This document shows, piece after piece, positions 17,820-22,080 of a DNA stretch of 47,500 nucleotides. The DNA is from Anaeromyces robustus. Its lineage: Eukaryota; Neocallimastigomycota; Neocallimastigomycetes; Neocallimastigales; Neocallimastigaceae. Position 1 is the first letter of the stretch. The number at the start of each line of letters is the position of its first letter. The notes beneath the pieces are model-generated. The model was not told where the DNA came from, ran no database searches, and was given only the letters and a program-made list of their open reading frames with translations. Location of the stretch: assembly GCA_002104895.1 (NCBI GenBank), contig MCFG01000011.1, positions 275,001 to 322,500 on the forward strand, in the 5' to 3' direction. The position numbers and the translations under genes are program-made.

Positions 17820-18390
17820 AGATTCATATTATATATTATTAAAATGTTTAAAAAAAAATGTATCATCATCGTTATAATGAAAAAAAAAAAATTAATTTTT
17901 ATTAATACTATAATTTTTTTTTTATTACTCAGACCTTTCGGTCAAGATTGTAACACATTTGCCTTCATTTAAGTAATATACGTATAACCCAGAACATTAA
18001 AGGGCATCATCATACACTTGATATTTTTTTTTTTTTTCTTTTTTAATATTATTTAATATGAATTTGTAAATTTCATTTAAATAAAGTTCATGTATCTTAA
18101 AACAACAAAGAAGTGTCATTTATAAGAAAGGTAAGGTAATGAATGTGACTTAAAAGACTTTGTTTTAAAAAAAATAAAATAATAAATATAAATAAGGATA
18201 TCATTTATTTTGACTTATTGATTTGATATTCATTGACACTTTTGGTAGTGAAGAGTTGAATTTATACTAAATACTAATTGAATCATAACTCTAAAGAAAC
18301 TTCAGAATTATCAACATAATTTTTTGTTAAATATATATTTAAAAATTTTTATACAATTATTTTTTATTTCTCTAGAATATAATATTTTTT
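17820..18390 (-). pseudogene. Decayed nuclear 18S rRNA fragment
   Basis: Read on the minus strand, several blocks match eukaryotic small-subunit rRNA in the right order. At 18284-18291 and 18237-18250 lie GAGTTATG and CACTACCAAAAGTG (18S: GAGTATGG and CACCACCAGGAGTG). They are 55 nt apart end to end, against 58 in 18S. At 17988-18008 the read is GATGCCC, two altered bases, then ATGTTCTGGG. At 17930-17946 CTTGACCGAAAGGTCTG is identical to fungal 18S. Between the last two blocks about 51 nt align without gaps, and the 18S motif CCGCACGCGCGCTACAC reads TTATACGTATATTAC. Nearly all changes are C to T or G to A, and they hit normally invariant positions, so this is a fossil and not a working rRNA. 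Poly-T and AAT tracts interrupt it. The outer limits are soft. Confidence 0.82.
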
Positions 18391-19453
18391 TTTAATAAAA
18401 AAAAATTTTTTTTTTGTATAATTGTTAACTATATATAAACATAATTATTCTATGTCCAATATTTAAAGTATTTTTTTTTTTCTTTCTTTTTTTTTTTTTT
18501 TTTTAAAGCACACAATTTGTACCTCATCTTTATTGAAATTAAATATTAATATACATAGATGATAAAAAAAAAAAAAAAACACACACACATAATAAAAAAA
18601 AATGATACTAAAAAAAATAAAAAAAACAGTTTAAACATTATGGATAATAATGAATAAAACTGGAGGGAAAAAAAAGTAGTATAATAATATGTAAAAACAA
18701 TAAAAAGTTCATACTAGCCCTTAATTCTACATAGAGAATTAAAATAAAATTGATCTATCCTATTCCACTTGGGTCGATAATAGGAAGATATAAAATAGTA
18801 TAATAATCTATATAAAGTTCATACTAACCCTAAGGTATCAAAATTCAATAAAAGAATACAAGCTAATAAAACAAAAACAAAAAAAGAATAGTGGTTACTT
18901 TTATTAAGAATAAAAAAAAAAAAAAAAAACTTTTATAATTTTAAATAAATAATATTATATTATATAACAAAAAATTATTCTCTTTTATACAATTTTAAAT
19001 AATATTTTATAATAAAAATTCTTTTCTTTAACACAGTTTTAAATAAAGTAATAATTTTTTTTTCTTTTTTTTAAAAAAAACGACTTTTATTTATTTTATA
19101 TTTTTTTTTTTTGCTTTTTTCTTTATATGTATATATATACTTATATAAAAAATTAATATATTTAAGTAATTTACAATTTTTTACATATATTTTAATTATA
19201 TATTATATATAATTATATAATTATATAATATTATGTCTTTTATTTTATTTTTTTTTTGTCTTTTTTTTTTTTTTTCTTCTTCTCTTTTCTTTTTCTTTTC
19301 TAAAAAAAAAAAAAAAGAAAAAAAAGAAAATTTGTAAATAATAAATAAAATAAAATTTTTATTTTATTTATTTAAATATATATATATTTTTTTATTACTT
19401 TATATTTATGAATTTTACATCTTTTTTTTTTTATGTATGTATTTTTATTATTC
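18391..19453. other. Spacer between rRNA fossil and GH16 3' end
   Basis: No gene is seen. It contains poly-T and poly-A runs, an ACACACAC tract near 18581 and the diverged duplication at 18.68-18.84 kb listed separately. The last part is the 3' flank of the GH16 gene. Confidence 0.6.
18677..18840. repeat. Diverged tandem repeat with hairpin between copies
   Basis: Copy A (about 18677-18722) and copy B (about 18794-18838) share AGTATAATAAT and AAAGTTCATACTA(G/A)CCCT, offset about 117 bp. Between them ATCTATCCTATT and AATAGGAAGAT can pair around a GC-richer loop with CACTTGGGTCG. On the minus strand parts resemble the 5' third of 18S (a GGATAG hairpin followed by GAATTA-GGG). That would fit an 18S fossil extending this far, but the similarity is weak. 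Confidence 0.5.
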
Positions 19454-21541: not shown

Positions 21542-22080
21542 AAAATGAAAATTTTTTTTTTTTTTTTTCTATATCCGGGGTATGCTTCTTTGATCTTCCC
21601 TAATGTGAAGCAGTAAGCCCACTCCCTAATAATTAGGTGGTAATGTGTCCCTCATGGACTGCCATACTGAAGTCAGCTTCGGCTCTCCCAATCTTGTACA
21701 ATAATTGCTGAATTTATATCCGCGAGCCACATATTGTTATTGGCGCCCGACATACCTCTAACGAGGCTGGTGAAGCCCAGCCCAGAAGTCACGTGATTCT
21801 AATCCACTTGGTTATTCTACATTACAGATTGGTTAAAGGTTGGTATTTCTCAAAGAAACAATATTAAAGACTATAAGCGTCAGGCAGTACAATAAATTAT
21901 TAAATTAAGAAATGTGGTATAATTAAGGAAGAACATACTAACACCTGGCAAGCGAACAAGTACTAATGAAAAACCCACGTTGAGGAAACATCAGGGTTGC
22001 GGGGTCGAACCAGAGACCTTATGTATGCTAAGACAACGCCTTAACAACCAGGATAAAAACTGGACCGACAAAATGAAAAT
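21542..22080 (-). mobile_element. tRNA-headed SINE with 11-bp target-site duplication
   Basis: The element is 21552-22069, about 518 bp, and clearly richer in G+C than everything around it. On the minus strand it starts near 22069 with a tRNA-like head. The A-box-like TGGTTGTTAAGG is at 22050-22039 and the B box GGTTCGACCCC at 22011-22001, with about 27 bp between them, and a T-arm that pairs. An unrecognised body of about 400 bp follows, and it ends in a 17-base A tail (17-T run at 21552-21568). Flanks 21542-21552 and 22070-22080 are identical (AAAATGAAAAT), a target-site duplication as left by LINE-type retrotransposition. It has no open frame. RNA polymerase III transcription from the internal boxes is inferred. 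The unspoiled composition and perfect duplication suggest a young insertion. Confidence 0.85.

Follow-up and report, generated by a model that had tools for sequence, protein, structure and literature searches.

The segment between positions 17,820 and 18,390 in a 47,500-nucleotide stretch of Anaeromyces robustus DNA (C13:275001-322500; the window) raises the question of whether an A+T-rich region of this anaerobic gut fungus harbors the remains of 18S rRNA and, if so, how these remains arrived there and which process eroded them. A first-pass annotation had read the minus strand as a nuclear 18S fossil, with several blocks preserved in order over some 570 nt and altered almost only by C-to-T and G-to-A changes. 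The features that bear on this question are the following:

17,924..18,025, minus strand: decayed 18S rRNA fragment (AT-aware alignment with shuffles; covariance model, E = 3e-6)
18,026..18,050, no strand assigned: flank at the 5' edge, A-rich on the rRNA-like strand, where homology stops abruptly (from the sequence; no 18S homology past the edge)
17,899..17,923, no strand assigned: flank at the 3' edge, A-rich on the rRNA-like strand (from the sequence; its A-runs are indistinguishable from a target-site duplication)
18,237..18,250, minus strand: claimed further 18S block (CACCACCAGGAGTG-like), dismissed as chance (102/1000 shuffles equal or better)

As references we used three 18S genes (L001, L002 and L003) that are eukaryotic contaminants in a bacterial genome collection (pattern scans of viral contigs supplied none); all three are scored as eukaryotic SSU by Rfam, and L002 lacks part of the 5' end. 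L001, whose record bears a bacterial title, is a sequence that we recognize as, and take to be, yeast rDNA, and yeast numbering here means L001 numbering. When these genes were aligned locally to the window under a matrix tuned to AT-biased decay, the best place for each of them was the minus strand of 17,924-18,025, a single piece of 102 nt homologous to yeast 18S nt 1421-1517, which presumably corresponds to the helix 41 region. The score against L001 was 72.0, while block-shuffled whole windows reached at most 50.6 (n = 60) and 53.6 (n = 214), and 2000 shuffles of the block's own composition at most 38.0; hence, none of the 274 whole-window and none of the 2000 own-composition shuffles attained the score of the real block, and the comparison with shuffled sequence proposed in the annotation came out in favor of its identification. 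With plain +1/-1 scores, the numbers of shuffles, out of 2000 per reference, that equaled the block were 0, 4, and 1. We also built a covariance model for this part of 18S from the same three genes; it found one place in the 47.5 kb at E up to 10, namely 17,919-18,031 on the minus strand (32.7 bits, E = 3e-6). We conclude that 17,924-18,025 is a dead piece of 18S rRNA sequence.

Standard tools would not have established the block by themselves. Rfam cmscan of the whole window and of the claimed stretch, the other check that had been proposed, gave no hit to an SSU family even with E values up to 10 admitted; at gathering scores the result was empty, and RF01960 did not appear. BLASTN was weak at this place (E = 0.87, 0.019, and 0.020 for the three references), and with L002 several low-complexity places outscored it. 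Among four further matrices, the two that favor transitions placed the block first on the minus strand, above all 40 shuffles, whereas the two without a transition preference put a GC-rich repeat at 21.6-22.07 kb ahead of it. In addition, the reversed decoy of L003 tied the score of the block (59.0) elsewhere in the window. These results are what one would cite in favor of a chance resemblance of AT-rich DNA to 18S; we nevertheless regard such an accident as the least credible of all readings, given the outcome of both sets of shuffles, the covariance-model match as the sole one in the window, and the presence of clear relatives of the same kind elsewhere in the genome. Scarcely more credible is a functional or regulatory RNA that has retained an 18S-like element. 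One hairpin with a GAAA loop does keep most of its pairs, as judged from the sequence and the covariance model, but several of the modeled pairs are non-standard in the window copy, and the block sequence, used as a DNA query, was found once in the genome. Moreover, its G/C sites are as decayed as those of other old fragments (0.33, in a range of 0-0.40 over the 18 fragments considered below, among which it is the third most decayed).

The remainder of the interval fared differently. The best upstream candidate (18,237-18,250) was equaled by 102/1000 shuffles with L001 and by 124/1000 with L003, and its gap-free extension had an identity of 15/45; the best downstream candidate was equaled by 230/1000 and 264/1000 shuffles, respectively. 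We regard both as chance. In a power simulation, every one of 200 trials on each side recovered adjoining 18S sequence with the same decay as the block, and even with the decay doubled the neighbors were detected in 191 and 186 of 200 trials. Since neighbors went undetected despite this power, the insert was either short or has had its neighbors deleted. With 97 of 1800 nt recognizable and its neighbors absent, the locus is not a complete 18S, and of the annotated multi-block fossil there remains one block of about 102 nt. References for 28S, 5.8S, spacer, and 5S were likewise aligned to the window, and none of them beat its reversed decoy by more than 3.9.

The window also contains two repeats. 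Near the block, positions 18471-18785 on the minus strand carry a dispersed repeat of about 300 nt that ends in poly(A), and its copies are mostly 78-88% alike among the best 40 scored of 918 candidates in the genome; it has the appearance of a SINE-type retroposon. Other copies, full-length or long, occur some 0.3-1 kb from a few other fossils, in inconsistent placement. The GC-rich non-coding repeat at 21570-22075 is found with 100% identity at 17 places, counting the one in the window, and at others at about 90% (best 40 of 178 candidates); it has no Rfam match, is apparently a young mobile element, and acted in the 18S tests as the chief compositional decoy.

Is the block an isolated case? 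The window, one protein of which is 100% identical to a protein of A. robustus, belongs to an assembly of 70,169,043 bases, and a search of this assembly revealed at least 37 separate 18S/28S fragment loci in graded states of decay, the window block included. The suggestion that stray nuclear rDNA pieces reside in this genome was thereby borne out well beyond the window. The yeast 18S query gave 23 matches at 19 places, four of which are copies of others: one place on contig C90 (C90:2) overlaps C350 at 100%; C739 repeats C501 at about 99% over roughly 2.8 kb, a segment that carries the 18S piece (L015 and L017); and C261 contains a tandem pair of 18S pieces, the flank of which is shared by C289. 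This leaves 16 separate 18S loci with the window block. A second 18S reference produced 17 matches, all at places already known. The 28S queries yielded 20 matches at 16 loci and the 28S 3' queries 6 matches at 5 loci, with flanks that are unshared except among pieces of one locus. The number 37 is a lower bound because the cross-species search missed the window block itself and because only the best candidates were scored. As a control, a reversed 600-nt piece of 18S had no match in the genome at E up to 10, an empty answer that alone proves nothing.

Most of the fragments measure some 50-450 nt and have abrupt ends. Longer fossils are found on C756 (L050, C756:20500-26500), which covers 18S nt 525-650 and 800-1800, on C115 (18S nt 8-1006, interrupted), and on C136 (L049, C136:54500-64000), where a nearly colinear but interrupted 5.8S-28S pseudogene represents the longest rRNA fossil that we found. 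In the fossil on C756, nt 800-874 of 18S are present twice in tandem ahead of the 800-1800 piece, a local duplication within the fossil. No long near-identical 18S was seen among the assembly matches, and a functional array therefore seems to be absent from the assembly.

We scored substitutions at the 1256 of 1800 18S sites that are identical among the references, a functional Anaeromyces 18S not having been found in the assembly. From the private-change, spectrum, and age-half tallies we dropped L016 (an assembly overlap with L005), L017 (a copy of L015), and L020 (a copy of L019). L025, which lies outside the 37 loci and has a flank 80-91% like those of L019 and L020, was kept with its 15 G/C sites in the invariant-site, context, spectrum, start, and age-half tallies. 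At the 1190 G/C sites of 18 18S fragments, there were 257 C>T/G>A, 37 C>A/G>T, and 13 C>G/G>C changes; the 1735 A/T sites showed 35 A>G/T>C, 47 A>T/T>A, and 14 A>C/T>G changes, so that 49 of them had turned into G/C. C>T/G>A thus makes up 257 of all 403 changes. On the rRNA-like strand, C and G had changed alike (104/464 and 153/726), as expected for DNA mutation after insertion. In the window block, 13 of 39 G/C sites had changed, 11 of the 13 by C>T/G>A; over all invariant sites, these transitions account for 11 of 17 changes. The claim that the block decayed almost only by C-to-T and G-to-A change is hence overstated.

Per site, the rate of change from GC to AT is about nine times that from AT to GC, which fits the strong mutational bias that the annotation had offered as one of its two explanations. 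The implied equilibrium GC is 10.3% for the 18 18S fragments (bootstrap 6.9-16.0%). Private changes give about 14% (83/590 versus 28/1197), and the 28S fragments, for which there were two references only, 17%. When the 18S fragments are divided by age, the younger half gives 20% and the older half 7%; differences between lineages in the functional 18S, which these counts still contain, probably inflate the value for the younger half. The estimates overall spread over 7-20%. For comparison, the non-coding GC of the window is 11.6% (13.8% without A/T runs) and 12.4%, and across 343 flank windows the non-coding GC has a mean of 14.7% and a median of 12.5%.

The other explanation in the annotation was a RIP-like process, and RIP acting on dispersed rDNA, in the manner of filamentous ascomycetes, would indeed produce the predominance of C>T/G>A seen here, at rates that resemble the 12.8-28% given for ascomycete rRNA pseudogenes in the available text of PMC5555474. 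According to the same text, the rRNA pseudogenes of ascomycetes are dominated by C>T/G>A, with RIP showing a CpA/TpG preference. In the Anaeromyces 18S fragments, however, CpA is not favored (C>T at 66/377, or 17.5%; p = 0.52 versus the rest), the other contexts being CpC 42/264, CpG 56/215 (26%), and CpT 59/336, and it is CpG that is elevated over the other contexts (odds ratio 1.7, p = 0.004); this tally still includes L016 and excludes 31 positions with one derived base in all covering fragments. The 28S fragments do not single out CpA either (CpA 30/214, CpC 49/197, CpG 31/131, CpT 37/251). Non-coding DNA of the window bears no RIP signature (TpA/ApT 0.98; (CpA+TpG)/(ApC+GpT) 1.12), and its CpG observed/expected ratio is 0.71. 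An exon-by-exon search of the genome with the C5-methyltransferase family PF00145, a procedure that split genes could escape, returned a single match, which is DNMT2-like. Furthermore, many of the pieces are much shorter than the approximately 400 bp said in the available portion of PMC5555474 to be needed for RIP. RIP as the cause of the decay is not supported by these data, and we consider it highly improbable. The seven long ORFs of the window have a CpG observed/expected ratio of 0.32, though a DNMT2-like methyltransferase is the only one found.

How the pieces entered the genome is a separate matter. We envisage that a piece of the fungus's own 18S rRNA sequence was inserted short into intergenic DNA and subsequently decayed, presumably neutrally, at the DNA level and on both strands, mainly through C:G-to-T:A transitions with little context preference and a mild CpG excess. 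Most of the short pieces would have come in as reverse-transcribed rRNA via the endogenous LINE machinery. Six of 17 18S fragments start at nt 1-10, where a generous random-cut model predicts 2.4 (P = 0.011); the upstream flanks of these 5'-end fragments are unrelated (15 pairs, lowest shuffle rank 5/200); and two fragments run up to nt 1799/1800, while the 1.3-2.0 kb behind them are devoid of a 5.8S signal. Mature rRNA is favored as the template because of these 5'-end starts, the unrelated upstream flanks, and the 3' ends without 5.8S. The genome contains at least 150 reverse transcriptase matches (150 scored of 463 candidates), and a single LINE-type frame on C1 combines a reverse transcriptase (RVT_1) with an endonuclease (Exo_endo_phos). 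The excess of 5'-end starts is modest, which weighs against the RNA route, and the window block itself begins at 18S nt 1421 rather than at the 5' end of its source RNA.

The main competitor is that rDNA itself supplied the pieces, through capture at double-strand breaks or through recombination, and that they then decayed through the same mutation bias. The order of 5.8S and 28S is preserved on C136, an arrangement compatible with rDNA or with precursor RNA, and fossil-bearing segments have themselves been duplicated. In a test for target-site duplications over 35 fragments, the two flanks of a piece resembled each other marginally more than mismatched flanks did, a difference short of significance (p = 0.071), and the sequence behind the pieces was not enriched in A; duplications and tails are thus unproven. 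Several fragment ends lie at GATC, and fast spacer evolution could also account for the 5' clustering and the 3' stops. The gathering of starts at the mature 18S 5' end behind unrelated flanks, and the halt of two pieces at the mature 3' end, nevertheless speak against cut rDNA. We therefore see capture of rDNA as a serious contender that falls somewhat short of an even chance, and give entry as rRNA cDNA slightly better than an even chance. That the pieces were inserted short, perhaps as such cDNA, is probable, and we hold with considerable confidence the account as a whole, namely that the block is defunct 18S sequence derived from the fungus itself, that it belongs to a set of at least 37 loci, and that RIP did not cause the decay.

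The GATC ends deserve separate mention. Fragment ends fall within 2 nt of this tetramer in 4/39 and again 4/39 cases, against 0.67 expected each, and in an unbiased tetramer scan of the ends GATC ranks first (7/78 versus 1.44 expected; p = 7e-4, uncorrected for the 256 tetramers). This excess is driven largely by one 28S site common to three fragments: L064, L065, and L067, 28S 3' pieces on C371, C523, and C201 that vary in size and in the extent of their decay, share the end point ...GCTTTTTGATC although their right flanks are unrelated. L064 and L066 start at or beside another GATC, and the start of L067 may be a decayed form of it. We consider it unlikely that the captured pieces have defined breakpoints at mature 18S ends and GATC sites; if true, this would point to a specific cleavage step, by an rRNA-cutting nuclease or a GATC-cutting DNA enzyme, as a long-lasting source of the genomic fragments.

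Two known systems offer comparisons. The rRNA pseudogenes of filamentous ascomycetes are likewise non-functional 18S/5.8S/28S copies dominated by C>T and G>A; as described in the available text (PMC5555474), they comprise rDNA subunits or repeats affected by RIP, whereas Anaeromyces contains short scattered pieces without a CpA preference, and a RIP gene was not found. The tailless retropseudogenes of therian mammals, attributed to LINE machinery acting in trans in the accessible part of PMC5322556, share several traits with the Anaeromyces pieces: they derive from structural RNAs, are truncated on the 3' side, lack a poly(A) tail, and often begin close to the 5' end of the RNA. Nucleolar rRNA is scarce among them (that text gives two forms for 18S and ten for 28S, each of them 5'-truncated), in contrast to the many pieces in the 70 Mb of Anaeromyces, where 6/17 18S fragments start 5'. 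We found no earlier report of rRNA fossils from an anaerobic fungus in the literature on rRNA pseudogenes and AT-rich bias. Features of this kind are known; what seems to be new, as far as this limited search extends, is how many short pieces an anaerobic fungus contains and that their spectrum is not that of RIP.

Fragments of this kind could mislead rRNA-based identification and copy counts. Their broader significance concerns the extreme A+T-richness of anaerobic gut fungi, of which Pecoramyces sp. F1 is another example, with a GC content given as 16.07% in the available text of PMC6414434. Whether mutation or selection drives this composition is hard to test without known ancestors; the rRNA fossils provide such ancestors at dozens of places, so that the mutation spectrum can be read directly. 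With an equilibrium of about 10% GC (7-20%) against 12-15% in non-coding DNA, mutation alone may suffice to account for the A+T-richness of this genome.
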